Source: Gammaproteobacteria bacterium (GTDB lineage Bacteria; Pseudomonadota; Gammaproteobacteria; Steroidobacterales; Steroidobacteraceae). From it: a stretch of DNA of 64,000 nucleotides. Shown in pieces: positions 18,818 through 40,195 of the stretch. A model generated the notes under the pieces. The model saw only the letters and a list, made by a program, of their open reading frames with translations. It ran no database searches and was not told where the DNA came from. Where the stretch lies: assembly GCA_025350055.1 (NCBI GenBank), contig JANXYK010000062.1, forward strand, positions 62,001 through 126,000, read 5' to 3'. A program made the position numbers and the translations under genes. Within the stretch, counting starts at the first letter, position 1. Each line of letters opens with the position of its first letter.

Positions 18818-18819
18818 GG

Positions 18820-21874: not shown

Positions 21875-23853
21875 CTACTTGCCTTCCAGCTCGCTGGCGA
21901 GACCGCTGAAGCCGCGATCGCGGGCGATGTCGGTCGCCGTGGCGCGCTTGCCATTGCGCAGCGAGGTGCTGGCGCCGGCGGCGCGCAACACGCGCGTGGC
22001 GGCGGTGCTGCCCGCGCGGCTCGCGGCCAGCAGCGCGGTGTCGCCATCGTGATTCTGCAGATCCACTGAAGCCTTGCGACGCACCAGCAGCTGCACCACT
22101 TCATCCTGGCCGCGCGCCGCGGCCAGCAGCAGCGGCGTGTCGCCATCGGCAGTGCGCGCATCCAGTTTGGCGCGCGAATCAAGCAGCAGCGCGGCCACCT
22201 TTTCGTAGCCGGCGGCTGAAGCGGTCATCAGCGCCGTGCGGCCCTCGTTGTCGGCGGCATCGACTTCGGCGCCGGCGGCCAGCAACAACTGTGTGATGTC
22301 GACGGCACCCGCGCGCGCGGCGCGCCACAACGCCGTCTCGCCATGCTGGTCGGCCGTGCGCGGCGAAGCATTGCGGGCCAGCAGCAGACGCACGACCGGT
22401 GCATTGGCCGCGGTTGCCGCCGCCATCAACGGCGTTTCACCGTGGGCATCGGCGGCATCGACCTGGGCGCCCGCTTCGAGCAGTCGCTCGACCACCTCGG
22501 CGCGTCCGGCGCGCACTGCAGCCAGCAGTGGCGTGGCCTCGTCGCCGGCGCGGCTGTCGGCATTCACGCCGGCGCCCAGCAGGATGTTCACGGCGTCGAT
22601 ATGACCGGTGCCCGCGGCCAGCACCAGCACCGTGCGCCCGCGGCGATCGGCCTGGCGCGGATTGGCGTGCGCGCCCAGCAAGAGCTTCAGCATTTCATCG
22701 GACCCGCTGTGCAGCGCGACGTGCAGCAGGGTGTCGCCTTGCGCCGTGCGCCCCTCGACATCGGCGCCGCCCGCCAGCAGCTTCTGTGCGGCGTCGGTGT
22801 CATTGCGTGCCGCAGCCAGTGCCAGCGTAGTCCAGCCCTGGTAGATCTCTCCGGGTCGCGCGGCATCGAATTTGCCGGCGCGGCTTGGCGCAGCGTGTGC
22901 GGCCAGCGTCTTCGCGCCCAGCGCTCGCAGCTGTGCCGCAGCTGCAGCGGCATCCACGGCGAGCGCGGCATCGAGTGCGGTGTATTCCCGGCTGTCGGGC
23001 GTATCGAGGCGCACACCGGCTTTGGCCAGCAACGCGACATTGTCAGCGCGATCGGCGCGGGCCGCATAGAACAGGGCGGTGCGATGTGCGGTATCGACGG
23101 CCGCTACCGGCACGCCACGGGCGAGCAGCAGGCGGGGCAGCTCGGCCGACTCGGCCTGTGAAGCCAGCATCAACGGCGTGACACCGAAGTTGTCGGCCAG
23201 CGCAGGATCGCAGCCGCGCTCGAGCAGGAACTGCAGCGCCGGCTGCGAGCCGGCGGCGGCTGCGGCGCCCAGCAGCGTGGCGCCGAAATCATCGCGCATG
23301 GTTTTCAGTTCATCACCCAGTACGGCGAGCGTCGCCACATCGCCATGGCGCGCGCTGTTGAACGCAAGATCGCGGCGCAGCGCGGATTCGGCCAGGCCCA
23401 CGCGCTCGGCACTGAGCGGATCGCGCCCCAGGCGCACATCTTCGATCGCGGCCGGATACCCCAGTTTCGCGGCCTGGTGCAGCAGCGCCTTGGCTTCTTC
23501 GGCAGGTGCGCCCGGCTTGTGCGCCAGGAGTGAGGCCAGCACGTAAGCCGCCGCGGCATTGTTCTGCGCCGCGCTCTTGCGCAGCCAGCTCTCGGCCTGC
23601 GCGCCATCGACCGGCCCGCCGACCCCGTTGAGATGAGTCAGGCCCAGCAACAGTTGCGCTTCGGCGTTGCCAGCATTGGCAAGCTGTTGCAGCCGGCTGA
23701 GGGCAGTCGGGTAGTCGCGCACGCGTAACGCTACGCGCGCGTTTTCCAGCGCATCGGTCTTGGCGGCAGCCGCGATCGCAGTGCCACAAACCAGGGACAG
23801 CGAGAGGATTGCGAGCCCCACCAGCCTTGCTGAGGGTCGCAGATGGCGCGCGC

Positions 23854-23857
<4 letters not shown>
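21875..23857 (-). CDS. Exported ankyrin repeat protein with Sel1-like N-terminal repeats
   Basis: This 660-residue protein begins with a signal peptide (LVGLAILSLSLVCGTAIAAAA), so it is most likely periplasmic. Residues about 35-150 form Sel1/TPR-like repeats (AEAQLLLGLTHLNGVGGPVDG). The remainder is a long ankyrin array of roughly a dozen units, recognisable as repeated G-x-T-x-L-x-x-A-x-x-x-G steps such as DAHGETPLMAAATAANAPVV. Both repeat types bind proteins. It overlaps the upstream oxidoreductase gene by four bases, so the two are co-translated. By position it may be a scaffold for the divergent multiheme cytochrome system, which is inference. Confidence 0.88.
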
Positions 23858-25164
<1,307 letters not shown>

Positions 25165-25367: not shown

Positions 25368-26696
25368 ATGAATTTAGGCCAGATTTTCTGGTTTGTCGCG
25401 GGCGTGCTTTGTTGCTGCGCGGTGCTGGCTGTCGTCTATCCGTGGCTGGCAGGAAAGCCGCGCGCACAGCTCGCTGGCGCATTGCCGCGCTGGGTGCCGC
25501 TGCTGGCGGTCGCTGCCGTGATTGGTGCGGTCGCGCTCTACCTGCGCCTCGGCAGTCCACAGTTGAACCAGCACGATGCCGTGGCCTCGAGCGCCGGTGC
25601 CGCGGGTGCGGCGGTCGCTGCGCCCCCGGTGGCTGCCTCAACTTCGAGTAAGAACGCAGGTTCGATGGATAGTGCCGTGACGCACCTGGAGAAACGTCTC
25701 GCGGGGGGCAGCGGTTCCGCGGAAGACTGGGAGCTGCTGGCCAAATCCTACGAGTTCCTGGGCCGCACCGCCGATGCGGCGCTGGCCCGCAAACAACAAT
25801 TGCCGGCCGGGGCGGGCACCGAGAATGCAGCACCCGCCGCCGCAGTTGCGCCGCCACCGGTACAGGCGCTGTCGCTCGCGGCCACTCAATTGATGAGCGA
25901 GGCCAGCGCTGCCCGTGCCAAGCGCGATTTTGCTGCCGCCCGCGCGGCCTACGCCAAACTGGTGGCGCGCAATGAGATGACGGCCGATGCCTGGGCCGAC
26001 TATGCTGACGTGACCGCCAGCGCCACGGGCAATTCGCTGTCCGGCCAGCCCGCCACCTATATACAGAATGCATTGCGCCTCGACCCGAACCATCCCAAGG
26101 CGCTCTGGCTGCAGGGCAGCCTGCAGCATGGAACCCATCAGTACGCTGCGGCCGTGGTCAGCTGGCAGCGGCTGGCTGCCGTCATCGGCAATGGCGCCGC
26201 GGATGCCAAGCTGATTGCCGCCAATCTTGCCGAGGATCAGCGACTCGCCGACGGCGGTGCGCCTGCTGGTGCGAGCGCGACGAATGCGACAGCCGCCGCC
26301 GCCGCCGCTGGCGCCAAGCCCGCTGCGCGTGCTGCCACTGGCGCTCCCGCCGGCGTGGTGCGTGGCGAAGTGGTGCTGACCGATGCGCTGCGTGGCAAGG
26401 TGCCCGCGGGGCTCACACTGTTCATCCTGGCGAAGTCGGTGAATTCACCCGGCGCACCAGTGGCGATCCTGCGCCTGACCACCGGCAGCTGGCCGGTGAG
26501 TTTCCAGCTCGATGATTCGCAGGCGATGATGCCCGGGCGAAATCTGTCGAGCGCGGGTCCGGTCACCATTGAAGCGCGCACTTCGCGCACCGGCCAGGCG
26601 ATGCCGGCGCCGGGCGATTTCCAGGGCGCCACCGAACCGCTCACGCCTTCAGCCGGCAAACCGGTACGTGTGATCATCCAGAGGGTGATTGGTTGA
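25368..26696 (+). CDS. CcmI/CycH-like cytochrome c assembly protein
   Basis: This 442-residue inner-membrane protein has two membrane segments (about residues 7-24 and 40-60), the topology of CcmI. A TPR region follows (LEKRLAGGSGSAEDWELLAKSYEFLG, and YIQNALRLDPNHPKALWL). The C-terminal 110 residues (GEVVLTDALRGKVPAGLTLFILA ... GPVTIEARTSRTG) match the periplasmic C-terminal domain of CcmI/CycH, which hands apocytochrome c to the heme ligation machinery. The rest of the ccm genes is absent here, so this looks like a copy dedicated to the multiheme cytochromes just downstream. It is the first gene of the operon; the next gene starts three bases after its stop. Confidence 0.8.
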   Translation: MNLGQIFWFVAGVLCCCAVLAVVYPWLAGKPRAQLAGALPRWVPLLAVAAVIGAVALYLRLGSPQLNQHDAVASSAGAAGAAVAAPPVAASTSSKNAGSMDSAVTHLEKRLAGGSGSAEDWELLAKSYEFLGRTADAALARKQQLPAGAGTENAAPAAAVAPPPVQALSLAATQLMSEASAARAKRDFAAARAAYAKLVARNEMTADAWADYADVTASATGNSLSGQPATYIQNALRLDPNHPKALWLQGSLQHGTHQYAAAVVSWQRLAAVIGNGAADAKLIAANLAEDQRLADGGAPAGASATNATAAAAAAGAKPAARAATGAPAGVVRGEVVLTDALRGKVPAGLTLFILAKSVNSPGAPVAILRLTTGSWPVSFQLDDSQAMMPGRNLSSAGPVTIEARTSRTGQAMPAPGDFQGATEPLTPSAGKPVRVIIQRVIG

Positions 26697-26699
26697 TCC

Positions 26700-27548
26700 A
26701 TGGAATTCATCAGCCGTCACCTGAGCCCGGTCCGCGCCTTTACGCTGTTCGTGATCGGGGCGCTGCTATGGGGCTACAACGCGCACCTCGAGCGCTACAT
26801 CACGCCGGCACGCGGCATGGGCTACATCCTCGGCATCGTCGGCGGCTCGATGATGCTGCTGCTGTCGACCTATCCGGCGCGCAAGCGCTTGACCTGGCTG
26901 GCTTCGATGGGCGATGTCACCTGGTGGTTTCGCATCCACATGGTCTTTGGCGTGCTGGGCCCGCTGATCGTGCTGTTCCATTCCAATTTTTCGCTCGGTG
27001 CCACCAACAGCAATGTGGCGCTGACCTGCATGCTGGTGGTCGCGGGGAGCGGCGTGATCGGCCGCTACTTCTACGGCCGCGTGTATGGCGGCTGGACGGA
27101 TCACAAGAGCACGCTCGAGGAATTGCAGGCCACCGCCGACATGCTGCGCAAGCAGTCGAGTGCGGTGAGTGTGCTGCCCGATCTGCTGAGCGTGATCGAG
27201 GCCGAGGAAGCGCGACTGTTCAAGCGGGCGCGCACGCCCATCGGCGGCCTGTGGAACATGCTGACGATCGGCCTGCGTTCGCTGCTGACGCGCTGGCGAC
27301 TGGAGCGCGCGATCCATCGCATGGTGGTCACGGCGGCGCGCCAGTCGCCGACACTGGCCGCGCATGGCTCGCGCCTCGCGGCCACGGCGCTGGGTTACGC
27401 CACGCGCCGTCTCGATGCCAACCGGCTGGTCAACGAGCATCGGGTTTACGTGAAGCTGCTGTCGCTGTGGCACTTCGCGCATGTGCCGTCTTTCATCATG
27501 CTGCTGGTGGCGGGCACTGTGCACGTGATCTTCGTACACGTTTACTGA
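26700..27548 (+). CDS. Membrane protein with conserved membrane histidines, candidate b-type cytochrome
   Basis: This 282-residue protein has about four to five membrane segments: residues about 12-30, 40-58, 75-95, 100-118 and 258-282. Histidines fall inside or at the ends of the hydrophobic stretches, notably WFRIHMVFGVLGPLIVLFHS and LWHFAHVPSFIML followed by VHVIFVHVY at the C-terminal end. This pattern resembles diheme membrane cytochromes b and ferric reductase-like membrane domains, but no family name is certain. A middle cytoplasmic part of about 120 residues is helical. It sits between the CcmI-like gene and the 21-heme cytochrome, a fitting place for a quinol-to-cytochrome electron entry point. 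Confidence 0.65.
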   Translation: MEFISRHLSPVRAFTLFVIGALLWGYNAHLERYITPARGMGYILGIVGGSMMLLLSTYPARKRLTWLASMGDVTWWFRIHMVFGVLGPLIVLFHSNFSLGATNSNVALTCMLVVAGSGVIGRYFYGRVYGGWTDHKSTLEELQATADMLRKQSSAVSVLPDLLSVIEAEEARLFKRARTPIGGLWNMLTIGLRSLLTRWRLERAIHRMVVTAARQSPTLAAHGSRLAATALGYATRRLDANRLVNEHRVYVKLLSLWHFAHVPSFIMLLVAGTVHVIFVHVY

Positions 27549-27593
27549 GCGTCGGGAACTGATTCCGTGCGTTGGGCAGGAGGCCTTTGGTTG

Positions 27594-29132
27594 ATGCGAG
27601 TCATGCTGACAGCAACGCTCATCGCCGCACCGGTCGCCCATGGCGCCTCGGTCGAGAGCCTGCTGATGCCCGACAAGGTCTCCAAGGCGCACGCCAAGCT
27701 CGAAGACACGTGCACCAATTGCCATGATCGCGGCGACCGCTCGCGCCAGAGCGCGCTGTGCCTGGCCTGCCACAAGGAAATCGCCGCCGACCTTACGGCC
27801 CACAAGGGTTACCACGGCCGCATGCCCAATGCCGGCATCGGCAAGTGCACCGGTTGCCACACCGAGCACCGCGGGCGCGATGCCAACATCGTGCGCCTGA
27901 ACACCACGGCCTTCGATCACGAGCGCACCGATTTTCCGCTGGCTGGCGCACATCGCACGCTGGCCTGCAACAGCTGCCACAAGGCTGGCGAGGCCTATCG
28001 CAAGGCCACGCCCACCTGCATCAGCTGCCACAAGAACGACGATTACCACGAGGGCCAGCTCGGCACCGCCTGCGCCGACTGCCACAACCTCGACAGCTGG
28101 GCCGGCGCGCGCTTCGATCACGGCAAGACCAAGTTCGCGCTCACCGGTGTGCACCAGAGCGTGAGCTGCAGCGCCTGCCACCTCGGTGGTCACTACAAGA
28201 ATTCACCCCTGGCCTGCGTCGGCTGCCACGCCACCGACGATGCGCACAACCGCGAGCGCGGCGATGACTGCGGCAAGTGCCACACCACCACCGAGTGGAA
28301 GACCGCCAAGTTCAACCACGAAAAGGAAACCGGCTTCGCGCTGCTCGGGCGCCACGCCAAGGTCGATTGCCTGGGCTGCCATCGCAGCGGCAACTACAAG
28401 GATAAGATCCCGAAGGATTGCTACGGCTGCCACAAGGCCGATGACTCGCATGCCGGCCGCTTCGGCCAGAAGTGCAACGACTGCCATGACAACGAGGTCT
28501 GGCACCCGGTGAAATACGATCACCTGGCGAAGACCAAGTTCGCGCTGGTGGGCGTGCACGCCAAGGTCGACTGCCACACCTGCCACAGCGCCAATGTCGA
28601 CAAGCAGAAGCTCGGCACCGACTGCGTGGCCTGCCATCGCGCGGCCAGTCCGCACGGCACGAAGTTCAAGCTGGCCTGCGACAACTGCCACGGCCAGCAG
28701 GACTGGCGCAGCGAGATCAATTTCGACCACGACCTGACCAGCTGGCCGTTGCTCGGCCTGCACAACGTAGTCGCCTGCGCGCAGTGCCACCGCACCCAGG
28801 CTTTCAGCGCCAGCGGCGAACGCTGCATCGATTGCCACAAGAAGGACGACGTCCACAAGGGTGGCCTTGGCGACAAGTGCGACAGCTGCCATACGCCCAA
28901 CGGCTGGGCGCTGTGGACCTTCGATCACCTCAAGCAGACCGGCTTTGCCTTGAGCGGCGCACACGGCAAACTCAAGTGCGTCGACTGCCATCGCAAGCCG
29001 GCTGGTGAAGTGAAGCTTTCGCCCGACTGTATTTCGTGCCACCAGAAGGACGACATACATGCCGGGCAATTCGGGCGGCAGTGCCAACGCTGCCATACCA
29101 CCGTAACCTTCCAGGGCGGACGTGCCAGGTAG
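27594..29132 (+). CDS. Periplasmic multiheme cytochrome c with 21 heme motifs
   Basis: This 512-residue exported protein has a signal peptide (MLTATLIAAPVAHGA) and 21 CxxCH heme-binding motifs, about one per 24 residues. The units repeat a pattern of F-D-H-x-x-T-x-F-x-L-x-G-x-H followed by C-x-x-C-H, typical of cytochrome c3/c7-like chains with bis-His hemes. I chose the ATG at 27594 because a perfect AGGAGG lies 10 bases upstream; a GTG at 27567 is an alternative. It probably carries electrons across the periplasm. The next gene, a 50-heme cytochrome, starts eight bases after its stop, and the outer-membrane barrel gene follows that. Confidence 0.92.
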   Translation: MRVMLTATLIAAPVAHGASVESLLMPDKVSKAHAKLEDTCTNCHDRGDRSRQSALCLACHKEIAADLTAHKGYHGRMPNAGIGKCTGCHTEHRGRDANIVRLNTTAFDHERTDFPLAGAHRTLACNSCHKAGEAYRKATPTCISCHKNDDYHEGQLGTACADCHNLDSWAGARFDHGKTKFALTGVHQSVSCSACHLGGHYKNSPLACVGCHATDDAHNRERGDDCGKCHTTTEWKTAKFNHEKETGFALLGRHAKVDCLGCHRSGNYKDKIPKDCYGCHKADDSHAGRFGQKCNDCHDNEVWHPVKYDHLAKTKFALVGVHAKVDCHTCHSANVDKQKLGTDCVACHRAASPHGTKFKLACDNCHGQQDWRSEINFDHDLTSWPLLGLHNVVACAQCHRTQAFSASGERCIDCHKKDDVHKGGLGDKCDSCHTPNGWALWTFDHLKQTGFALSGAHGKLKCVDCHRKPAGEVKLSPDCISCHQKDDIHAGQFGRQCQRCHTTVTFQGGRAR

Positions 29133-29139
29133 GGATGTC

Positions 29140-32100
29140 ATGACACAATCAACACACAGTCATTCGCACACTCCGACGTTGTGGGCCTTGATGCGACGGG
29201 CAGGGCGCTATGGCACGCTCGTCGTGCTCGGCCTGCTGGCACTGGGCACTGCCACGGCGCAGCCCACGGCTCCCGTGGTGACGGCACCGGTGGAACGCAC
29301 GGCTTTCGATCACCTGACCACGGGTTTCGAGCTGCTCGGCAAGCACCGCGATCTGCCCTGCGAATCCTGCCACGTCAACGCGATCTTCAAGGGTACGCCG
29401 CGCGATTGCGCGTCCTGCCACGGCGTGGGCACGCAGGTGCGCGCCACCAAGAAGCCGACCAGTCACATCCTCACGTCCAACCGCTGCGAGGGCTGCCATA
29501 CACCGGTGGCCTTCAGTCCGGCGGTGAATTTCGATCACGCGGAAGTGCAGGGCAGTTGCTCTTCCTGCCATAACAACGTGCAGGCGCAGGGCAAGGGCCC
29601 GACGCACATCGATACCAATCTCGAGTGCAACGCCTGCCACTCGACCATCGGCTGGGCGGGCGCCGTGTTCAACCACAATGGCATTACGACCGGATGTGCG
29701 AGCTGCCATGACGGGGCCAAAGCCAAGGGCATGCCGCCCACGCACATTCCGATTGGCACACCGGCTGCGCCCTGCGAGGCCTGCCATATTCCGACCAAGT
29801 ACACCTCGTTCTCCGGTGCGACGATGAACCATCCGGCCGTCGGCACTCCGCCGATGCTGTGCACGGTTTGTCACGAGGCGGGCATGAGTTTCTTCGGTGT
29901 CACGATCGTCACCCGACCGCCGGCGCCGCATCCCACCACCGGCGATTGCTACCAGTGTCATACGTCTTTCACCACCTTCAAGGGCGGCACGGGCCAGCCC
30001 GCCGGGCATATCCCGACCACGCAGCCCTGCGTGCTGTGCCACTCGAATCCGGCCGACTATAAGGTTTACGTGATGATGCACAATGGCATCACCAGTGGTT
30101 GCGCGACCTGCCACGGCCCGGGCAAGAGCTTCACCAATATGGCGCCGCCGACATTGGTGCTGCCGCCGGCCAATCACATCGGCTACGGTGGCGCGGCCTG
30201 CGAGAGTTGCCACTCGAACACCAACTTCACGATTCCCGGCGGCTTCATATTCGCCAATGCCAGCGGCACGGCGCCGCCGGCGATGGTGCACTCGGCGGTG
30301 AGCACATTGCGCTGCGACAGCTGTCATGCCAGCGGCCTGACTTTCGCGGGTGCGCCGCCGACCAAGGTGTTCCCTGCCAATCACGTGCCGATCGGCGGCG
30401 CCGACTGCGGCGTGTGCCATGGCAACACCAGCTTCAGCAGCTTCATGTTTACCAATGCCAGTGGCACGGTCGCGCCGGCCATGGTGCACAGCGCGGTCAG
30501 TGCGATTGTCTGCTCGACCTGCCACGAGAAGAGCCTGACCTGGGCCGGCGTGCCGCCGACCAAGACGCGTCCGGCCACCGAGGCGAGCGGCGCCACGCAC
30601 CCGAGCTCGGGCGAGTGTTCCGACTGCCACAAGTCGACTGTGACCTTCAAGGGCGCCGGCAACTATCCGGCCAATCACGTCCCGCTGCCTAACGGCGCCT
30701 CGAGCAATTGCAGCAGCTGTCACGCCGACCCCAACAATTTCTCGGTCTATACGATGGACCACAGCGTGGTGAGCGGCACCGCCTGCGCCGTGTGCCATGG
30801 CGCAGGCAAGAGCTTTGCCAACATGGCGCCGCCGACGCTCAAGCTCCCGCCGACCAATCACATCCCGATCGGCACGGCGGCCTGCGAGAGCTGCCATGCG
30901 CCCACCGTTTTCACGAACTTCGTGATTGGCAACGTGGTGCCGCCGATGAATCACGCCGCGGTCGCGAGCCAGACCTGCGCCTCCTGCCATGGCGCGGGCC
31001 TGACGTTCGTGGGCACACCGACGGTCAAGGTGTTCCCGGCCACCGGCCACATTCCCACCGGCACGACCGCCTGCCAGAACTGCCACTCGGTCACGAACTT
31101 CAGCAGCTTCGTGATCACCAATGCCGTGCCGCCGATGAACCACACCGGCTTCACCACCGGCTGCGCCAGCTGTCACGCCAATGGCCTGACCTTCCTCGGC
31201 GCACCGCCCACCAAGGTGATGCCGAACAATCACATCCCGACGGGCACGATCGCCTGCGAGGGCTGTCATTCGAACAGCAACTTCAGCAGCTTCGTCTTCA
31301 GCAACGCGAGCGGTACGATGCCGCCCTCGATGGTGCACACGGTGGTGACCTCGATCGTCTGCTCGACCTGCCACGAGGCCGGCAAGACCGATATCGGCAC
31401 ACCGGCGACCAAGGTGCGGCCGGCGCTGAAGGCCGATGGTACGGCGCACGTGCCGGCGGGTGAGTGCTCGACCTGCCATTTTAACACCACCTCGTTCAAG
31501 GGCGCCTCCGACCTGCCGGCCAATCACATTCCACTGCCGGCAGCCGACAACAACAACTGCGCGCTGTGCCACACCACGCCGGGCAACTACAGCATTGGCG
31601 TGATGAACCACGTAAACATCGCCAGCAACTGCACGCAGTGTCACGGTACGGGCAAGAGCTTCGCCAACATGGCGCCGCCGACGTTGAAATTGCCGCCGTC
31701 GAATCACATACCCTTTGGCACTGCAGCCTGCGAGAGTTGCCACTCGACCAGCAACTTCACGAACTTCGTGATCGGCAACGTGGTGCCGCCGATGAGCCAC
31801 GCGGCGGTAGCCACGATCAGCTGCAACAGTTGCCACGGCGCCGGCCTTACTTTCGTCGGCACGCCGGCGGTCAAGGTGTTCCCGGCCACGGGCCACATAC
31901 CGACCGGCACCACGCTGTGCACGAACTGCCACTCGGCCACCAACTTCACCAGCTTCGTGATCACCAACACCGTGCCACCGATGAGCCACACCGGCTTTAC
32001 GACCGGCTGCGCGAACTGCCACGCCGCCGGCCTGACTTTCCTCGGCACGCCCGCTACCAAGGTGATGCCGAACAACCACATCCCGACCGGCACGATTGCC

Positions 32101-33786
32101 TGCGAGGGCTGTCACTCGAACAGCAACTTCAGCAGCTTCGTGTTCACCAATGCGAGCGGTACGGCGCCGCCCTCGATGGTGCACACGGTGGTGACCTCGA
32201 TCGTCTGCTCGACCTGCCACGAGAAGGGCAAGACCGACATCGGCACGCCGGCGACTAAGGTGCGGCCGGCGCTGAAGGCCGATGGCACGGCCCACGTGGC
32301 GGCGGGCGAGTGCTCCACCTGTCATTTCAACACCACCAGCTTCAAGGGCGCAGCCGACCTGCCGGCCAACCACATTCCGCTGCCGGCAGCCGATAGCAAC
32401 AACTGTTCGCTGTGTCACACCACGGCCGGCAACTACAGCCTGGCAGTGATGAACCACGTGAACATCACCACCAACTGCGCGCAGTGCCATGCCTATGGCC
32501 TGAGCTTTGCGAACATGGCGGCGCCGACCCTGAAGCAGCCCCCTTCGGGCGCCACTGGGCACATCCCCTCGAACCCGCCGAATGGCACGTTGGTCATCGC
32601 CTGCGAGCAATGTCACACCGCCACGGTGTTCACGACTTTTGCGGGAACCGTGATGAAGCACCTGGCGGTGCGCACCATGGCCTGCGTGAGCTGCCACGAG
32701 CTCGGCATGAACTGGAAAACGAACTCCAGTCTTTGGGTGCGGCCTAGCAGTGGCCATCACGGCACTCAGGACTGCGGCGGTTCGGGTTGCCACTCGACCC
32801 GCGACAAGTTTGGCGCGCGCCGCGGCGTGGCCGTGGGTTCGAGCCTGAAGTCGGCCAGCACTGTGACGCCAGCGCTGGGTGCGGGAGGCGCCGCGCTTGG
32901 TCGCACGGCGGGCTTCAACCACCGCCGCGTTGCGGGTACCGCCTGCGTGAGTTGCCACGGTCCGACCAGTGGTCTCGGCAAGCCGACCACGCATATCTCG
33001 ACCAGCGACAGCTGCGAGAGCTGCCACAACACGCTCGCCTGGCAACCGCTCACGACTGTGGATCACAGCCAGACGCGTGGCACATGTGTGAGCTGTCACA
33101 ACACCACGGTCGCGAGCGGCAAGCGCAACAACCACATCGTCAGCGGCAACGACTGCGAAACCTGCCACACCACCAACGCCTGGACGCCAGCGCAATTCGA
33201 TCACGGTGGCGTGGCTGCGCACACCTGCACCACTTGCCACAATGGCATAGCCACCACTGGCCTGCCGTTGAAGAATCACGTGCAGACCAGTGCGCAGTGC
33301 GATACCTGCCACGGCACGCTGGGCTGGAAGCCGGCGATGGTCGACCACACCGTGCTGACGGCGACCTGCGCCAGCTGCCACAACAACAGCATCGACATCG
33401 GCAAGCCGACCGCGCACATGGCCACGTTGCGCGATTGCACCAGTTGCCATGCCTATCCGGACTGGGCGGTGCTGCACTACGTGCACACCACGGCAAGCTT
33501 CCCGGGCCAGCATCGCGCGGCACTGACCTGCGCGAACTGCCACACCGGCAATAGCGAGTTGATTCCGTGGCAAGCGGGTTTGAACAGCAGCTGCGCTGGC
33601 TGTCATGCGGCCGCCTTCAAGCCCGCCTTGCATCCGAAGACCACGACTGGCCTGAAGTACACCGTGAACGAGCTGAGTGACTGCACCAGCGCCTGCCACG
33701 TCTACAGCGACGCCACGCAGGGCACGATCGTGAAATCGGTGCCGGGCAACTATCACAAGGTGTCGGATGCCGCGTTCAAGCACTAG
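29140..33786 (+). CDS. Giant multiheme cytochrome c with about 50 heme motifs
   Basis: This 1548-residue exported protein has a signal peptide (TLVVLGLLALGTATAQ) after a short His-rich start. I count 48 CxxCH motifs plus one C-x4-C-H (32773-32793) and one C-x3-C-H (33682-33699), about 50 possible hemes. Much of the middle is built from 60-residue, two-heme units of the form C-x-x-C-H ... G-L-T-F ... H-I-P-x-G-T. Two copies of an 846-base block stand in exact tandem (30811-32502). The ATG at 29140 follows AGGTAGGG; a GTG at 29122 overlapping the previous stop is less likely. It lies between the 21-heme cytochrome and the outer-membrane barrel, which points to an electron wire that reaches or crosses the outer membrane. 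Confidence 0.92.
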   Translation: MTQSTHSHSHTPTLWALMRRAGRYGTLVVLGLLALGTATAQPTAPVVTAPVERTAFDHLTTGFELLGKHRDLPCESCHVNAIFKGTPRDCASCHGVGTQVRATKKPTSHILTSNRCEGCHTPVAFSPAVNFDHAEVQGSCSSCHNNVQAQGKGPTHIDTNLECNACHSTIGWAGAVFNHNGITTGCASCHDGAKAKGMPPTHIPIGTPAAPCEACHIPTKYTSFSGATMNHPAVGTPPMLCTVCHEAGMSFFGVTIVTRPPAPHPTTGDCYQCHTSFTTFKGGTGQPAGHIPTTQPCVLCHSNPADYKVYVMMHNGITSGCATCHGPGKSFTNMAPPTLVLPPANHIGYGGAACESCHSNTNFTIPGGFIFANASGTAPPAMVHSAVSTLRCDSCHASGLTFAGAPPTKVFPANHVPIGGADCGVCHGNTSFSSFMFTNASGTVAPAMVHSAVSAIVCSTCHEKSLTWAGVPPTKTRPATEASGATHPSSGECSDCHKSTVTFKGAGNYPANHVPLPNGASSNCSSCHADPNNFSVYTMDHSVVSGTACAVCHGAGKSFANMAPPTLKLPPTNHIPIGTAACESCHAPTVFTNFVIGNVVPPMNHAAVASQTCASCHGAGLTFVGTPTVKVFPATGHIPTGTTACQNCHSVTNFSSFVITNAVPPMNHTGFTTGCASCHANGLTFLGAPPTKVMPNNHIPTGTIACEGCHSNSNFSSFVFSNASGTMPPSMVHTVVTSIVCSTCHEAGKTDIGTPATKVRPALKADGTAHVPAGECSTCHFNTTSFKGASDLPANHIPLPAADNNNCALCHTTPGNYSIGVMNHVNIASNCTQCHGTGKSFANMAPPTLKLPPSNHIPFGTAACESCHSTSNFTNFVIGNVVPPMSHAAVATISCNSCHGAGLTFVGTPAVKVFPATGHIPTGTTLCTNCHSATNFTSFVITNTVPPMSHTGFTTGCANCHAAGLTFLGTPATKVMPNNHIPTGTIACEGCHSNSNFSSFVFTNASGTAPPSMVHTVVTSIVCSTCHEKGKTDIGTPATKVRPALKADGTAHVAAGECSTCHFNTTSFKGAADLPANHIPLPAADSNNCSLCHTTAGNYSLAVMNHVNITTNCAQCHAYGLSFANMAAPTLKQPPSGATGHIPSNPPNGTLVIACEQCHTATVFTTFAGTVMKHLAVRTMACVSCHELGMNWKTNSSLWVRPSSGHHGTQDCGGSGCHSTRDKFGARRGVAVGSSLKSASTVTPALGAGGAALGRTAGFNHRRVAGTACVSCHGPTSGLGKPTTHISTSDSCESCHNTLAWQPLTTVDHSQTRGTCVSCHNTTVASGKRNNHIVSGNDCETCHTTNAWTPAQFDHGGVAAHTCTTCHNGIATTGLPLKNHVQTSAQCDTCHGTLGWKPAMVDHTVLTATCASCHNNSIDIGKPTAHMATLRDCTSCHAYPDWAVLHYVHTTASFPGQHRAALTCANCHTGNSELIPWQAGLNSSCAGCHAAAFKPALHPKTTTGLKYTVNELSDCTSACHVYSDATQGTIVKSVPGNYHKVSDAAFKH
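30811..31656 (+). repeat. 846-base in-frame tandem repeat, copy 1
   Basis: This is the first of two adjacent copies inside the giant cytochrome gene. It encodes 282 residues with nine CxxCH motifs. Anchors such as the AGCTTTGCCAACATGGCGCC-type start and the CEGCHSNSNFSSF segment recur exactly 846 bases later. A partial third start occurs at 32503, and a shorter related unit begins near 30127. Confidence 0.85.
31657..32502 (+). repeat. 846-base in-frame tandem repeat, copy 2
   Basis: This is the second copy, directly after the first and of identical length. Most differences I can see from copy 1 are silent or conservative (for example PPMNHAAVASQ against PPMSHAAVATI), which suggests a fairly recent duplication of nine hemes or ongoing gene conversion. 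Confidence 0.85.
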
Positions 33787-36232
33787 CAGCCCCAGGGTCT
33801 GGCTGCTGGCCGCGCTGGTACTCGGGCTGTTGCCCGCGGTGCCGGCGCGCGCGCAGTCCTTCGGCAACGGACCCGGGCGGTTTGTCGATATCGTTGAGCT
33901 CAGCGATCGCGACGACCAGGCCGATATCGTGGTGCAGTTCACCTGCTCGCTGCGTTATATCACCCACCAGCCGGCATTCGAAGGCACGGAGCTGCGCATC
34001 CAACTGCTGCCGCAAGGCGATTGCTTGCTGCAGCCGGGCACGCAGATTGCCTCGGAGCTACCGCCGCTGTCCGGTGGCGCCACCATCATCGCGGCCGTGC
34101 GTGTCGAATCCGATGTGCCCGGCCAGGCAACGCTGGCCTTTACTTTCAAGAAGAGCGAGCGTTTTGTAGTCGCACAGGGTGTCGATCCGCGCAGCATCCG
34201 CCTGCGCCTGGTCGACCGCGCCCGCGGTCGCGGCAAGGTGATGCTCAACGAACCTGCCGATGGCGTCAGCAATTACGCCATCAACCTGGAATCGCAGCCG
34301 AAGGAATTCGAGCCGGCTGCGATCCAGCGCGCGCGCGATCGGCTCAAGACGCAGATCTTCGTCAGCCAGGCTGTGGTCGATGGACAAACCTGGTTCCGGC
34401 TGCGCGCGGGTCCCCTGGACAAGCGTAAGGATGCCGACCTGCTGTTGCTGCGGGCGCTGGCCGACTACCCGCGCGCCTGGCTGGCGATCGGCGATGACAC
34501 GGCCACGACCAATGGGGGCACGGCCGAGACGCTGCCGGCCGTCGAGCGCATTGGCGCTGATCCGGCGCTCGACCCGGCGGCACTGGCGACCCTGGTGTCG
34601 CAGGCGCGCGCCGCCATGACGGCGCGCGACTATCCCAAGGCGATTGCGGCGCTCACCAAGCTGCAGCGGCAACCGGAATTCCCGCAGCGCGCGGCGATGC
34701 AGGAGCTGCTGGGCCTGGCGCGCGAGCGCGCTAGCCAGCTCGCGCATGCCAAGGCCGAGTATGAGGAATACATGCGCCGTTACCCGACTGGCGAAGCGGC
34801 CGACCGTGTGGCGCGGCGCCTCCAGGTGCTGCGCGCGGCCTCCACGCAGGCGCGTACCGGTTCGGGCGGCGGTACTGCTGCACCCACCGGCTGGAATATC
34901 AGCGGCGGTGTTGGCCAGATGTATCGCTACGATGGCACCACCATCAGCAATGGCAACAGCGCCAGCAACGGCGGCAACAATCCGGCCGCCAGCCAGACCC
35001 AGAAGCAGAATGCGCTGTACAACGATCTCGACCTGCTGGCGCGCGACCGCGGCGAGCGCTTCGACATGCTGGGGCGCGTCAGCGTCGGCTACGCAAAGAA
35101 TTTCGCTGGCGCCTCAGCCACCGCCAACAGCGATTCCACCAAGCGCGTCAGCGTGGCCTCCTTCGAGGTCTCTGATCGCACGCTGCGGCTGCTGGCACGC
35201 GTCGGCCGCCAGTCACGCAACGAGGACGGCGTGCTCGGCACCTTCGATGGCATCTTCACCTCGTGGCAGGCGCTTCGCTCTGTGGGCCTGAATTTTGCGT
35301 ACGGCTATCCAGTCGAGCAGACCAGCGCCGGCATCCAGAGGCAGCGGCGCTTCTGGGCCGTGGCGCTGCCCTTCGCGATTCCTGGTGCGCACTGGGATGC
35401 GAGCGTGTTCTACACCCAGCAGACCTTTGATGGCATCAAGGATCGCGCCGCCGCCGGCATGGAGGCGCGCCTGTTGTTGCCGCGCAGTTCGCTCACCGCG
35501 CTGATCGATTACGATACCTATTTCAAGTCACTCAATGCCGCAGCGCTGCTGGGTACGCTGCAGCTGCCGGATCGCTGGAACCTGAGTTTCGACATCGAAA
35601 AACGCAATGCGCCGGTGATCACCGCCCGCAATGCACTGATCGGCCAACCGTTCACGAGCGTGGCAGAGCTGCGCCAGGTCGCGACCGACGCCGAGATCTA
35701 CCAGTGGGCGATCGATCGCACCGCGGTCAGCTCCAACTACAGCATCACTGCCACGCGACCGCTGGGTCAGCGTTTCCAGTTCGCGACCACGATCACCGCT
35801 TCGGAGATCGGCGCCACGCCGGCTTCGGGCGGTGTACCCAACCAGGCCGCCACCGGACTGAACTATTCCTACCAGACGCAGATCTACGGATCGAACATCT
35901 GGCGCAACGGGGATTTCAACGTGTTGAGCGTCGCCTATGCCACCACCGAGGTGGGCAAGATCGCCTCCATCGGCATCACCAGCCGCATGCCGCTGAGCGG
36001 CGCGTGGCGCATAGGCCCGCGCCTGAATTTCGATCGTCGTGAACTGGTCAGCGATGGTAGCGTCGAATTCTCGGTGCTGCCCTCGATGCTGATCGACTAC
36101 CAGCGTGGCCGCAGGCTGCTGCAGTTCGAGCTGGGCGGCCAGCTCGGCAAGCGCGATTCGAGTGCGCAAACGCAGCAAACGCAGAAGACGACGCGCTATT
36201 ATGCGAGCCTGGCATACCGCATCGGGTTCTGA
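33767..36232 (+). CDS. Outer-membrane beta-barrel protein with SPOR/TPR-like N-terminal part, porin-cytochrome partner
   Basis: This 821-residue protein has a signal peptide (VWLLAALVLGLLPAVPARA). Residues about 35-180 look like an AMIN-type beta domain, a segment near 210-250 (GQTWFRLRAGPLDKRKDA) resembles a SPOR peptidoglycan-binding domain, and residues about 285-355 are TPR-like (ARAAMTARDYPKAIAALTKL). From about 375 to the end it alternates polar and aromatic residues in beta-strand fashion and closes with YYASLAYRIGF, the terminal Phe signature of outer-membrane barrels. The start overlaps the giant cytochrome by 20 bases. It is the likely porin sheath of a porin-cytochrome conduit, analogous to MtrB but with different periplasmic domains; analogy, not proven homology. 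Confidence 0.75.
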   Translation: MPRSSTSSPRVWLLAALVLGLLPAVPARAQSFGNGPGRFVDIVELSDRDDQADIVVQFTCSLRYITHQPAFEGTELRIQLLPQGDCLLQPGTQIASELPPLSGGATIIAAVRVESDVPGQATLAFTFKKSERFVVAQGVDPRSIRLRLVDRARGRGKVMLNEPADGVSNYAINLESQPKEFEPAAIQRARDRLKTQIFVSQAVVDGQTWFRLRAGPLDKRKDADLLLLRALADYPRAWLAIGDDTATTNGGTAETLPAVERIGADPALDPAALATLVSQARAAMTARDYPKAIAALTKLQRQPEFPQRAAMQELLGLARERASQLAHAKAEYEEYMRRYPTGEAADRVARRLQVLRAASTQARTGSGGGTAAPTGWNISGGVGQMYRYDGTTISNGNSASNGGNNPAASQTQKQNALYNDLDLLARDRGERFDMLGRVSVGYAKNFAGASATANSDSTKRVSVASFEVSDRTLRLLARVGRQSRNEDGVLGTFDGIFTSWQALRSVGLNFAYGYPVEQTSAGIQRQRRFWAVALPFAIPGAHWDASVFYTQQTFDGIKDRAAAGMEARLLLPRSSLTALIDYDTYFKSLNAAALLGTLQLPDRWNLSFDIEKRNAPVITARNALIGQPFTSVAELRQVATDAEIYQWAIDRTAVSSNYSITATRPLGQRFQFATTITASEIGATPASGGVPNQAATGLNYSYQTQIYGSNIWRNGDFNVLSVAYATTEVGKIASIGITSRMPLSGAWRIGPRLNFDRRELVSDGSVEFSVLPSMLIDYQRGRRLLQFELGGQLGKRDSSAQTQQTQKTTRYYASLAYRIGF

Positions 36233-36234
36233 AC

Positions 36235-36825
36235 GTGTCGCGATTCCGAACATTGCTGGCGCCGCTCGGCGCACTGCTGCTGTCCACCGGCGCCATCGCC
36301 CGCGACGCGCCGCCGCCCACTGAATACCTGGATGAATCCACCGGCGCCACCGTGACGGTGGTCGACCGGCCGCTGGTGTTTGCGCGTGAGCGCAACGAGC
36401 GCGCCGCCAACCTGCGCGACTACGTCACGCTCTCGGCGGCCTCGGTCAACCGCGGCGGCAAGATCGAATACGTGCTGGTCGCCTACCTGTGGTCGACGCT
36501 CGACCCGCGTTTTGCACCCACGCTGGGCGCCGAGTCGCTGGTACTGCAAGCCGATGACCGGCGCATCGCGCTTACCGCCAATGGCAAGTCGCCCTCGGAT
36601 CTGGGCATTGTCCAGCCGGTCTACGCGCCGCCCGGCCAGCAGCCGGGCCAGCAATCCAAGCCGAAGGTGTTCCCCACTGACCTCGGCACGCTGCGTTTCA
36701 TCGCCGCCGCACGGAAGCTCGTGATCCAGAACCAGGCCGATGATTTTGCCTACGACTACGAGTTGTGGGACGACAAGCGCCGCTCGCTGGCGCGCTTCGT
36801 GCGTTTTCTGGAAGGCGATCGCTGA
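36235..36825 (+). CDS. Exported protein of unknown function in the cytochrome operon
   Basis: This 196-residue protein starts with GTG two bases after the barrel gene stop, so it is almost surely co-translated. It has a signal peptide (TLLAPLGALLLSTGAIA) and a mature part of mainly beta character (YVTLSAASVNRGGKIEYVLV, then LVLQADDRRIALTANGK) with a Gln/Pro-rich linker (PPGQQPGQQSKPK). No Cys is present in the mature part, so it carries no c-type heme and is not a lipoprotein. I do not recognise a family. By position it is an accessory factor of the barrel and cytochromes. Confidence 0.72.
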   Translation: MSRFRTLLAPLGALLLSTGAIARDAPPPTEYLDESTGATVTVVDRPLVFARERNERAANLRDYVTLSAASVNRGGKIEYVLVAYLWSTLDPRFAPTLGAESLVLQADDRRIALTANGKSPSDLGIVQPVYAPPGQQPGQQSKPKVFPTDLGTLRFIAAARKLVIQNQADDFAYDYELWDDKRRSLARFVRFLEGDR

Positions 36826-36836
36826 CAGTCCTGACC

Positions 36837-38921
36837 ATGAAGTGGCATGCGTTCCTCGCCCTGTTGTTGCCTTGCCTGGTGGCGGGTACTGCGCCTGCGA
36901 AGGATCGCCCGCTGCCGGCCTCGCCGCCGAGCTTCGATGTGACGATGACGGAGGCGAGCATTGCCATGCCCGACGGCGTGCATCTCGCGGCCGACATCTG
37001 GCGCCCGAAGGGGAAGGGCGCTGCCGGCCACTTCCCGGTGTTGCTCGAATACCTGCCTTACCGCAAGACCGAGGCGCGCGGCGAGCGCTACGCGTTGTAT
37101 GCCTACTTCGTGCGCCGCGGCTACGTGGTCGCGCGCGTTGACATCCGCGGCACCGGCAACAGCGAAGGCAAGCTGATTCCCTACGAGTACAGCGACATCG
37201 AGAACCGCGATGGCGATGCTGTGATCGCCTGGCTCGCGAAGCAGACCTGGTCGAACGGCAGGGTCGGCATGTTCGGCATTTCCTGGGGCGGTTTCAATTC
37301 GATCCACATGGCGATGCGCCGGCCGCCGGCGCTCAAGGCCATCATCGCGGTGGATGCCACCGATGATCTCTACCAGGACGACGTGCATTTCATGGATGGC
37401 GTCATGCACGTGGACGACTGGGAGATGAACCAGGACCTGCGCAACGCGATGCCGGGCGCGCCGGAATACCGCATCGACGAACAGTACTTCACCGACCGTT
37501 TCGATCAGCCACCCTGGGGCCTGACCTACAAGCGCCAGCAACGCGACGGGCCGTTCTGGGATCGCACTTCGCTGAAGACACGCTACGACTCGATCCAGAT
37601 TCCGACCTTCATGATCGGCGGCTGGTATGACGGTTACCGCGACAGCGTGCCGCGCGTGCTCGAGCACCTGAAGGCGCCGGTGAAAGGCATCGTCGGGGCA
37701 TGGAACCACACCTTTCCTCATGAGCCTTATCCGAAGCCGGGCTTCGAATCCCGGCACGAGATGGTTCGCTGGTTTGACCAGTGGCTCAAGGGGCGCAATA
37801 CCGGGATCATGGATGAGCCACGTCTGGCCGTTTATGTGCGGCAATGGCATCCGCCCGGGCCCTATCTCGAGACCGCGCCCGGCGCCTGGCGTTTTGAGGA
37901 TGGCTGGCCGCTCGCCGACTCGCAGCAGCGTGTGCTGTATCCGCGAGCCGATCATGCGCTCATCGATAGCTCACCCGGGGATGCAAAGCTCGACTTGCGC
38001 TACGTTCCGACCAGCGGTGTCGAGGCCGGTGGACCGGTGATGTGGTTCGGCGATGTGGCGCCCGATCAGCGCCCCAGCGATGCCTTCAGTCTGGCGTTCG
38101 ATTCCGAGCCGCTGGCGACGGAGCTCGAGATCCTGGGATTGCCGCATGCCCTGCTGCAGGTCTCCGCGAGCGCGATCCAGGCCGATTGGATGGTGAGGCT
38201 GGAGGATGTTGCGCCCGACGGCACCACGACGCTGGTAGCCTCCGCCGCGCAGAACGGCGCGCACCGCGACTCGGCGCGCGAGCCGCGCGCACTCGTGCCG
38301 GGCGAGCGTTTCCCGCTCGAGATCGAGATGCACTTCACTTCGTGGGTGTTTCCGCAAGGGCATCGCCTGCGCTTCGCCGTCAGCAATGCCCAGTGGCCGA
38401 TGCTCTGGCCGACACCCTATGCGATGATCACCTCGCTGTACCTGGGCGCGGGCGGCACGCAGCTGGTGCTGCCGGTGATGCCGGCGGGCAGGGTGCGCAG
38501 CGCGCCCGAGTTCCAGCCCATCGAGGCCGACGGCGAGCAACTGCCGGGCTACGGAAGCCTCGATCTGGGCACGCCCTCAGGCTACGGGGAAATTTCTTCG
38601 GTTGAACGCAATCCCCGCACCGGGGATGCCAAAGTGGTCGCGACCAACAACAGCGCCGAGCGCTTTCCGTGGGGCGAGGAATACAACACGGATGTGATCA
38701 CGCACCAATCGAATGACGAACATCCCGAGCGTACCTCGGTGCGCGGCGAGTACACGACCACGATCAAGCTCAAGGACCGCACACTGCGCTGGGAGAGCAA
38801 GGTGGAGTGGCGCAGCGATCGCGACAACTTCTACTACCAGGGCAATCGGCGGCTGTTGAAAGACGGCGTGCTGATCCGCGAGAAGTCCTGGGAAGATCGC
38901 ATTGCGCGCGATCATCAGTAA
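36837..38921 (+). CDS. CocE/NonD family exported hydrolase (X-Pro dipeptidyl-peptidase-like)
   Basis: This 694-residue protein has a signal peptide (AFLALLLPCLVAGTAPA) and an alpha/beta-hydrolase domain of the S15/CocE type. The nucleophile Ser lies in FGISWGGFNS, and the oxyanion-side RVDIRGTGNSEG motif precedes it. Further on come PTFMIGGWYDGYRDSV (Asp) and GAWNHTFP (His). The C-terminal beta-rich X-Pro dipeptidyl-peptidase domain (FPLEIEMHFTSWVFPQGHRL) completes the usual architecture. Members hydrolyse acyl or peptide bonds; the substrate here is unknown. I chose the ATG at 36837, 12 bases after the previous gene. It may be only a passenger in the cytochrome transcript. Confidence 0.88.
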   Translation: MKWHAFLALLLPCLVAGTAPAKDRPLPASPPSFDVTMTEASIAMPDGVHLAADIWRPKGKGAAGHFPVLLEYLPYRKTEARGERYALYAYFVRRGYVVARVDIRGTGNSEGKLIPYEYSDIENRDGDAVIAWLAKQTWSNGRVGMFGISWGGFNSIHMAMRRPPALKAIIAVDATDDLYQDDVHFMDGVMHVDDWEMNQDLRNAMPGAPEYRIDEQYFTDRFDQPPWGLTYKRQQRDGPFWDRTSLKTRYDSIQIPTFMIGGWYDGYRDSVPRVLEHLKAPVKGIVGAWNHTFPHEPYPKPGFESRHEMVRWFDQWLKGRNTGIMDEPRLAVYVRQWHPPGPYLETAPGAWRFEDGWPLADSQQRVLYPRADHALIDSSPGDAKLDLRYVPTSGVEAGGPVMWFGDVAPDQRPSDAFSLAFDSEPLATELEILGLPHALLQVSASAIQADWMVRLEDVAPDGTTTLVASAAQNGAHRDSAREPRALVPGERFPLEIEMHFTSWVFPQGHRLRFAVSNAQWPMLWPTPYAMITSLYLGAGGTQLVLPVMPAGRVRSAPEFQPIEADGEQLPGYGSLDLGTPSGYGEISSVERNPRTGDAKVVATNNSAERFPWGEEYNTDVITHQSNDEHPERTSVRGEYTTTIKLKDRTLRWESKVEWRSDRDNFYYQGNRRLLKDGVLIREKSWEDRIARDHQ

Positions 38922-38923
38922 CG

Positions 38924-40195
38924 CTAGTACGCGTTGAAGGGTCCGTTGCCAGCCGAGGTGCTGCGCCCTTCAAATCCGACGTACACGCGCCGGCCATAGA
39001 AGAACGGCAATCCCCAGTCGAATGAGCTGGCGATCGGATTGCTGCCGGCGACATTGTTGAAGGCGCTGAAGCTGGGGTTCGCCGAGGCCAGCGTATCGGC
39101 GTTGGCGATGTTGAACGACACGGTGCTGGTGACACCGGTATGGCTGCGGTTGGTGGCCGACAGCGTCTGCGCGACGGATGGGCAGTAGAAGCTCGGGGTC
39201 TTGGGGCAGTCGGGCAAGGCAGTCGTCGGTTGGCCGAAGAAATAGCCGTTCGAGCCTGAGTCGATAAAACTGTTGGCCATCGAACTGCCAGCGTAGTCGG
39301 TGGTGAAGTAGCCGGTCAGCGGATCCACGGTCATGAACGTGGCGCTGCCCAGCTGGTTGTTCGACTGCGTATCGATGCCCAGGATCAGGGAGCCACGCGC
39401 CGCCTGCTGTCCGACTGAGGTCAGCGTCGGCAGTTCGATCGCCACGCCATTGTTGTTGGTCGCAAAGTAGTAGATCGGATTGGCGACCTGCATCGCAGTG
39501 CTCACCTTGACGCCCAGCGGCACCGTGCTGGCACCCACCGTGGTATCGCAGCTGCCGCCGCTCGGGCAGCCGTAGTAGGCCGCCGGCTCGATCTGGCTGG
39601 CGCAAGCCGCGCCGCAGTCTTCGCGAAACACATTCACGCCCAGCACGCCATTGGCGCCGAAGGCCTCGACGGTATTCTCTGACGGTCCGGAGGCGCAATC
39701 GCTCGGCACCGCCGGCGCGGCTGGATCGCCGATCAGATGGATCGGCACGTTGCCGGCAGCACCGTCAGCGATCTGCACGTCGGCATTGCGGACGCTCCCC
39801 CAGGTGTAGCCATCGGCAAACTGCAGGCATTCGTACATCGGGTTGGAGGGAGGATTGCCAGCCAGATTCTCGGTAACAGGCTGCGGCAGTGCGCTGGTCA
39901 GCGTGGAAGTCAGCACCGAGGCGATGATGCGCAATCCCGTCGAACCGCTGTCGAGCAGCACGTGATCGACGCTCTGGCAGTTCGTGGTGCCCGGAGCGCA
40001 GACCGTCACGGTGACGAAGGCCAGATTGATTGCAGTGCCGCCCGGACCTGCATCGACAATGACCGCGCCGACGTTGCTGCCGGTGGTGATCGTCAGTCCG
40101 CCGCCGGAGCTGCCACCGCCACATGCGGTGAGCACCAGCGCAGTCAGCAGCCCCAGCGCGCGCTGCGCATGGACCAGGCCGCGCTGCCCGCTCAT
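38924..40195 (-). CDS. DUF3443 family lipoprotein with pepsin-like Asp-Ser-Gly motifs
   Basis: This 423-residue protein has a lipoprotein signal (LLTALVLTACGGG, lipobox Cys at 25), so it is anchored in a membrane facing the periplasm or outside. It belongs to the DUF3443 family, whose function is not established. Two motifs stand out: LLDSGSTGLRI with D82 and FIDSGSNGYFF with D312, plus GANGVLGVNVF between them. This spacing and pattern resemble the two catalytic Asp motifs and the DGILGL segment of pepsin-type proteases, which suggests an aspartic peptidase fold; this is inference. Eight or more cysteines could form disulfides. It overlaps the DUF2844 gene by four bases and ends two bases from the convergent hydrolase gene. 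Confidence 0.82.
   Translation of the reverse strand: MSGQRGLVHAQRALGLLTALVLTACGGGSSGGGLTITTGSNVGAVIVDAGPGGTAINLAFVTVTVCAPGTTNCQSVDHVLLDSGSTGLRIIASVLTSTLTSALPQPVTENLAGNPPSNPMYECLQFADGYTWGSVRNADVQIADGAAGNVPIHLIGDPAAPAVPSDCASGPSENTVEAFGANGVLGVNVFREDCGAACASQIEPAAYYGCPSGGSCDTTVGASTVPLGVKVSTAMQVANPIYYFATNNNGVAIELPTLTSVGQQAARGSLILGIDTQSNNQLGSATFMTVDPLTGYFTTDYAGSSMANSFIDSGSNGYFFGQPTTALPDCPKTPSFYCPSVAQTLSATNRSHTGVTSTVSFNIANADTLASANPSFSAFNNVAGSNPIASSFDWGLPFFYGRRVYVGFEGRSTSAGNGPFNAY

Follow-up and report, generated by a model that had tools for sequence, protein, structure and literature searches.

The 64,000-nucleotide stretch analysed here (the window), taken from contig JANXYK010000062.1 of a Steroidobacteraceae assembly (GCA_025350055.1), contains six plus-strand genes at 25368-36825 and, upstream of them, two divergent minus-strand genes at 21875-25164; both sets were checked by translation and family search (Table 1). 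On sequence-level features the six genes form a porin-cytochrome cluster of the PCC3 type, with a characteristic inner-membrane protein (IMP), and one of the divergent genes encodes a 436 aa flavoprotein (labelled FADFES) that is a near-constant partner of such clusters. The first-pass annotation had counted seven plus-strand genes; the six it listed are all present as open frames, and the count of seven does not hold. Neighbouring gene ends overlap at 29122/29132, 33767/33786 and 23854/23857, the last overlap being the 4 bases shared by the flavoprotein and Sel1/ankyrin genes. The contig measures 134 kb in a genome of 3.29 Mb (76 contigs, 96.34% complete), and its closest named relatives are gammaproteobacterial metagenome assemblies, part of them labelled Steroidobacteraceae.

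Table 1. Genes of the PCC3 locus and its divergent flank (window coordinates)
Product	Position	Strand	Evidence
Exported Sel1/ankyrin-repeat protein, 660 aa	21875-23857	-	Pfam Ank, Sel1
Apparently membrane-anchored Fe-S flavoprotein, 436 aa	23854-25164	-	Pfam Fer4, Pyr_redox_3; alignment of 24
CcmI/CycH-like cytochrome c assembly factor, 442 aa	25368-26696	+	Ig_CycH 2e-27
PCC3 IMP, predicted di-heme b, 282 aa	26700-27548	+	WX3HX13H x2, SGXXG, loop charges
Presumed periplasmic multiheme cytochrome, 521 aa	27567-29132	+	21 CXXCH
Giant, presumably extracellular cytochrome, 1554 aa	29122-33786	+	48 CXXCH, 1 CX3CH, 1 CX4CH
Outer-membrane barrel, 821 aa	33767-36232	+	Beta domain, SPOR, TPR, ~22-strand barrel; model
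Small exported protein, no known family, 196 aa	36235-36825	+	Family search

The PCC3 type was described as a porin, an extracellular cytochrome, a periplasmic cytochrome and a five-helix IMP (He et al. 2017, PMC5566968). In that description the extracellular cytochromes have a median of 34 and a maximum of 85 hemes, the periplasmic ones a median of 21, the cytochromes spend 22-39 residues per heme, and the IMP, about 300 aa long, carries SGXXG on helix 4 and WX3HX13H on helices 3 and 5. The window cytochromes fall inside the published range with 24.8 (21-heme cytochrome) and 32.4 (giant cytochrome) residues per heme, a barrel gene in the cluster provides the porin, and the IMP displays WX3HX13H at 76 and 257 and SGVIG, a form of SGXXG, at 117. 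Because the hemes, residues per heme and IMP motifs fit these features, the locus is assigned to PCC3 at the level of published sequence features rather than by alignment with a named PCC3 reference. Gene content and IMP motifs bear out the porin-multiheme cytochrome conduit of the first-pass annotation, which had called it apparently new. A new PCC family was discarded after comparison with PCC3: the gene set, clustering, 21 hemes, giant partner, residues per heme and IMP motifs are the same, with no basic difference from the account in PMC5566968. Such a locus very probably wires the inside of the cell to its outside through a chain of heme proteins. The main text of PMC5566968 has no mention of CcmI, tetratricopeptide, TPR or peptidoglycan, and its PCC3 section names no cytoplasmic flavoprotein; its figures and supplements lie outside the scope of both statements.

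The flavoprotein is tied to PCC3 by its distribution. An IMP alignment was run against 84,980 species genomes; of the 288 relatives obtained the best 80 were kept, which with the window makes 81 loci. A gene was scored as present if it occurred anywhere in the fetched stretch, and denominators count the loci with enough flanking sequence, the window included. On this count the flavoprotein is found in 62/64 loci, all except L080 and L107. Gene order is rearranged in L047, L093, L097 and L110, yet the flavoprotein remains in the cluster. Among 274 genomes of the window's class, a strong IMP match (E <= 1e-40) occurs in 34 and the flavoprotein (E <= 1e-60) in 36, with both in 33 and neither in 237 (Fisher p 6e-38, uncorrected for kinship). 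The flavoprotein limit was fixed beforehand and the IMP limit after a gap in the scores was seen (1.7e-41, then 1.5e-17); relaxing the latter to E <= 0.001 would give 44 IMP genomes, and the extra 10, distant or short matches, were dropped. A strong IMP without the flavoprotein occurs in G336 only, and the flavoprotein without a strong IMP in G244 (partial match), G285 (positions 122-431 only) and G323 (72% complete). The two genes share a contig in 29 of the 33 pairs, 25 times within 3 kb and always within 12 kb. In a sample of 299 genomes of the phylum, from which G285 and G419 were dropped because their matches cover only 122-431 and 171-431, both full proteins occur in the same 4 genomes, one of them outside the window's class; two of the four (G000, G232) also belong to the class sample. 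With 62/64 loci, 33/34 genomes and the plasmid gene run described below, the suggestion that the divergent oxidoreductase may belong to the system is more strongly backed than when it was first made.

The flavoprotein chain begins with a helix and basic residues, followed by CxxCxxCxxxCP, CxxHxxCxxxCP, a segment such as FETNVPGIFIAGELGGMGLIRNA, GxGxxG and the NAD(P) domain, and by sequence the protein looks membrane-anchored. The 81 loci hold 70 flavoprotein frames, 4 of which have <400 residues and were excluded from the motif count; the remaining 66 all carry both cluster motifs, including CxxHxxCxxxCP. In genome G651 and in Emticicia, Ser replaces the second Cys of the first motif and the His-containing motif is kept. 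The motifs suggest two Fe-S clusters in all, one of them at a site of an unusual Cys3His iron-sulfur type. None of the cysteines outside the 7 in the cluster motifs is conserved, so that no dithiol site is apparent, a dithiol reaction is unlikely and Fe-S transfer is likely. The conserved YRx3FxRxK suggests a preference for NADPH, judging from the chemistry of thioredoxin reductases (TrxR). In the single-contig genome G180 the flavoprotein gene (G180:C1:2217460-2219028) shows an in-frame TGA, and its match falls into two parts.

Relative to YpdA/TrxR-like FAD-NAD(P) proteins the flavoprotein is apparently circularly permuted. In YpdA/TrxR proteins a VPGxFxAGD segment is expected at the point where the flavoprotein chain ends. 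Since the AlphaFold2 (AF2) model of the flavoprotein was poorly packed, the permutation was tested by profile scores. Once the segment preceding GxGxxG had been moved to the end, the window protein scored 173.4 bits against the YpdA profile, compared with 151.1 for its core and 156.7 for the native protein, and that of L114 scored 175.3 bits, compared with 152.6 for its core; the profile matches came to reach positions 289 and 309 of 316, against 264 before. This gain in score and match extent supports a circular permutation. All three scores of the window protein miss the TIGR04018 (YpdA) cut-off of 339.9 bits, which marks it as a relative and not a member of that family. Aligned to the two best PDB relatives, the moved segment also falls close to the end of the chain, with scores short of significance (-2.4 and -1.8 bits).

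A search of plasmids with the flavoprotein (E <= 1e-60) returned a sole match, full length at 45.6% identity, on pEMTOL02 of Emticicia oligotrophica (Bacteroidota). The gene lies inside a co-directional run (L147:12049-24633) composed of ccsA (product 1028 aa), an IMP gene, the flavoprotein gene, genes for a 23-heme and a 40-heme cytochrome, a 538 aa protein and a lipoprotein-like protein. The IMP, reached here via the flavoprotein match, is a distant homologue (281 aa, 25% identity, E 7e-15) with WX3HX13H and SGVVG; with the window IMP as query, the plasmids yielded nothing at E <= 1e-10. The run, too, includes an assembly factor, CcsA in place of CcmI. The 538 aa protein looks like an outer-membrane barrel. 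BLASTP gives no significant match between it and the barrel of the window; by eye the two have in common GR[Q/K]x8GxxDG, a motif that coincides with columns 480-495, which are invariant in the alignment of barrels. For Bacteroidetes, putative PCCs have already been published (PMC6344600).

Distant relatives of the IMP form loci of another composition. Sixteen were hand-picked from IMP matches in three genome samples (L126-L141), and 10 of them combine the IMP and a decaheme cytochrome with an adjoining flavoprotein-like frame of 794-888 aa that has Fe-S motifs; three of the ten were scanned with Pfam and display an unpermuted Pyr_redox, two cyclic-nucleotide-binding (cNMP) domains and Fer4. 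Pairing of this IMP type with a flavin/Fe-S enzyme is thus common, not universal. The PCC4 and IMP-multiheme clusters of He et al. (2017, PMC5566968) share with the window a five-helix IMP that has two HX13H and adjoins multiheme cytochromes, often accompanied by another redox protein, and the distant loci may be of this kind. They differ from the window in having a decaheme rather than a 21-heme cytochrome and, in the three scanned, an unpermuted flavoprotein with cNMP domains. As a second kind of locus, with an FAD-cNMP-cNMP-4Fe4S protein, the distant IMP and a decaheme cytochrome in a row, they make cyclic-nucleotide control of an electron gate worth a look.

The window IMP has seven overlapping hydropathy peaks, interpreted as five helices. 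Identical motif types occur in 29 further loci (L006-L034), and relatives at E <= 0.001 in 61/148 genomes near the window's, its own counted. Pfam offers no family for the protein up to E = 1, and it does not score as a ferric reductase-type (FRD, PF01794) domain protein; He et al. likened the IMP heme arrangement to ferric reductases and cytochrome b (PMC5566968). The loops at 58-78 and 123-252, with segment borders set by hand, are net positive in 18/18 alignment rows, which argues for their cytoplasmic location, and this placement would put H80/H261 at the inner face of the membrane and H94/H275 at the outer face.

The motif counts of the two cytochromes, 21 and 48+1+1 = 50, agree with the heme numbers first proposed, and residue shuffling (200 shuffles each) leaves means of 0.3 and 0.5 CXXCH with a maximum of 3. 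The smaller protein is presumed to be periplasmic from a signal-like N-terminus, recognised by eye, and the giant one is presumably extracellular. The cytochrome adjoining the IMP has 21 CXXCH in 64/69 related loci; the remaining five have 18 (L095), 24 (L096) or no adjacent cytochrome (L047 and L097, both rearranged, and L074). L124 and L125, beyond the 81-locus set and one of them from another class, have 24.

The barrel gene is found in 37/39 loci with enough downstream sequence, being absent from L074 and from L047, where the contig ends after the giant cytochrome. A structure model of the barrel protein from 45 sequences (pLDDT 84.9, pTM 0.69) consists of a beta domain (40-149), a SPOR-like domain (170-241), TPR helices (270-363) and barrel strands (376-820), with 22 long strands counted from the strand list. 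MtrB has 26 strands. Up to 42 transmembrane regions have been predicted for PCC3 porins (He et al., PMC5566968). In Pfam the SPOR domain is barely over its cut-off and TPR is under it. The model also has a conserved helical stretch at 620-650 that separates strands 13 and 14 and might serve as plug or docking site. No PDB sequence relative of the barrel is better than E = 0.19, and the 50 fold matches listed have low TM scores, with usher secretion pores on top (TM ~0.26). The small exported protein occurs in 32/39 loci with at least 9.8 kb downstream in a single search, and in 35 with an iterated profile that gives more than one match per locus.

The CcmI-like protein scores 95.5 bits against a cut-off of 27 for the CycH Ig-like domain and stays far below the cut-off of the CcmH/CycH TPR domain model (12.1 of 42). 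Its gene is present in 57/64 loci with an iterated profile and in 55/64 with a single pass. The ccm genes of the window's genome, with a CcmI of their own, are located elsewhere, on contig C37; the copy at the PCC3 locus is therefore a second one. The exported Sel1/ankyrin protein is a regular PCC3 neighbour, with a match in 52/57 loci having at least 6.5 kb upstream, as far as repeat proteins, which match loosely, allow such a count.

Genes farther out were considered and set aside as members of the system. The S15 peptidase gene (36765-38921, +) is unmatched (E <= 1e-10) among the 80 related loci, few of which reach that far downstream. The upstream ApbE, zinc-peptidase and metallo-beta-lactamase genes are matched only in the close relatives L035, L037, L039 and L040, with one extra match of the zinc-peptidase in L045; not every locus reaches so far. 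The ApbE flavin transferase gene of the window lies at 18682-19824 (+). A 399 aa frame at 36756-37955 (-), with no family and no match in the 80 related loci, is taken as spurious. A DUF3443 protein is encoded near the locus (38924-40195, -) and has homologues in 13/81 loci, the window counted.

Gene set, motifs, conservation and linkage come from the sequence; from them we infer cofactors, locations, electron path, direction and donor. The reading we prefer, with a probability of roughly 0.55, is a PCC3-type trans-envelope electron conduit with a cytoplasmic NAD(P)H-type flavoprotein at its inner end. Held at the inner membrane by a single helix, the flavoprotein would accept electrons from NAD(P)H or reduced ferredoxin, and its FAD and two Fe-S clusters would relay them to the heme b on the cytosolic side of the IMP (H80/H261). 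From there they would move to the periplasmic heme b (H94/H275), to the 21-heme periplasmic cytochrome and, through the barrel, to the cytochrome of about 50 hemes outside. The SPOR/TPR part may moor the barrel to peptidoglycan, and the CcmI-like protein may be a dedicated assembly factor of these heme-rich cytochromes. The near constancy of a cytosolic flavoprotein partner speaks for a net outward flow with NAD(P)H or ferredoxin as the redox partner at the inner end, which would replace the published quinone-linked model; reverse flow that makes NAD(P)H is possible.

Several observations weigh against this reading. The 80 loci were chosen by IMP similarity from related genomes, and their counts are not independent events. 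The flavoprotein is lacking from L107, from the rearranged, short-contig L080 and from genome G336, and it occurs without the IMP in G323 and, as a partial match, in G244. Six of the 16 distant loci have no full flavoprotein: L128 and L131-L134 have none, and L138 has cNMP and Fer4 without a flavin domain. In the window and in all of the 70 holding loci except L110 the flavoprotein gene is on the strand opposite to the IMP gene, so the two are mostly not one transcript. Binding of NAD(P)H is deduced from family resemblance. In the AF2 model the flavoprotein domains are badly packed, with TM <= 0.3 to relatives, and this model backs neither the permutation nor the cofactor geometry. Locus L074 has a CcmI-like gene and a PCC3-type IMP (L074:394-1341), but the 10 kb that follow contain neither a multiheme cytochrome nor a barrel. 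The converse case, cytochromes without barrel and membrane genes, had been named at the outset as evidence that would count against a conduit; it was encountered once, as a lone paralogue of the giant cytochrome on contig C10 of the same genome (L004:5413-12591, -; 2392 aa, 74 CXXCH and 2 variants). Neither this paralogue nor L074 undoes the conduit, because most related loci keep the full set.

The least improbable alternative, still rather unlikely, is the model of 2017 (PMC5566968, Figure 6 legend and IMP section), under which PCC3 takes up electrons from Fe(II), minerals or humics and the IMP reduces the quinone pool, leaving the flavoprotein as a side branch, e.g. one making NAD(P)H by reverse flow, or as unrelated. 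Known Fe(II) oxidisers carry PCC3, di-heme b proteins can be quinone-active, and PCC3 is treated as a putative Fe(II)-oxidising complex in the literature (PMC10734462, PMC12442390, PMC13386937, PMC8788666, PMC12016527). Expression data oppose each other in direction. When Sideroxydans CL21 cells can oxidise iron, a single PCC3 gene is significantly raised, the IMP gene of copy 2 (PMC12442390), which speaks for uptake and against export. In ES-1 the two PCC3 clusters show lower levels with Fe(II) than with thiosulfate (PMC8788666). RuBisCO was not found in the 96%-complete genome of the window, other carbon-fixation routes lying outside that search, and Calvin-cycle growth on Fe(II) is therefore disfavoured in this genome. 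Together with the near-constant flavoprotein partner, this and the ES-1 result argue against uptake.

It is improbable that the flavoprotein serves cytochrome maturation, for instance as a cytosolic reductant for heme or thiols, and stands apart from the wire. Its relation to YpdA and thioredoxin reductases would suit such a role, as would its position, which also weighs against the conduit reading: it lies <=700 bases from the CcmI-like gene, the nearer of the two partners, in 61/64 loci having both, and on the strand of that gene in L093, L124 and L125. Against maturation stand the two Fe-S cluster motifs, the lack of a conserved dithiol, and the distant flavoprotein-IMP-decaheme loci, 9/10 of which (all except L130) show no CcmI-like gene in the stretch read. 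We likewise give little credence to a giant cytochrome that forms a free surface filament with a barrel that only secretes or anchors it and holds no cytochrome in its pore, as the orphan 74-heme paralogue without barrel or IMP and the low-scoring usher matches might suggest, since the barrel is kept in nearly all PCC3 loci with enough downstream sequence, as a conduit predicts.

The conduit with a flavoprotein at its inner end can be set beside other systems. MtrCAB, MtoAB and PioAB follow the same logic of a porin, a periplasmic cytochrome and an optional surface cytochrome, with 10 hemes against 21 and about 50 here; no protein in the genome reaches the MtrA-family cut-off (TIGR03508, 192.2 bits), scores of 13.9 and 122.4 bits being obtained. 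Ferric reductases and NADPH oxidases similarly combine a cytosolic NAD(P)H flavoenzyme with a transmembrane di-heme b. The window differs from them in its separate TrxR/YpdA-type flavoenzyme with Fe-S motifs and in a cytochrome wire as the likely acceptor. A 2026 study of ghost-rock (PMC13264449) argues for export in heterotrophs in the same way and notes ferredoxin-NADP reductase genes near 7/11 'group 1' PCCs. Group 1 likewise pairs a large cytochrome with a porin of some 20 strands; it is described as decaheme, the word PCC3 is absent from the account, and the likeness to the present flavoprotein is one of description only. Apart from this remark on its own PCC group, the text passages covered in the papers searched nowhere describe a flavoprotein or a CcmI-like gene as a conserved part of PCC3.

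PCC3, which holds very large heme proteins, is common, with a strong IMP match in 34/274 sampled genomes of the window's class, and the near-obligate NAD(P)H-type partner suggests a possible source of PCC3 electrons. Tentatively, and at somewhat less than even odds, PCC3 could be regarded as an NAD(P)H-driven, quinone-bypassing exporter, a bacterial counterpart of NADPH oxidase in which the outer heme supplies a 21-heme wire across the periplasm and a giant wire at the surface, driven by a permuted, membrane-anchored flavoprotein with a Cys3His-type Fe-S site and shared by Pseudomonadota and Bacteroidota, each with its own CcmI or CcsA. If this is true, disposal of cytosolic reducing power outside the cell, bypassing the quinone pool, would become a candidate trait of many environmental bacteria.

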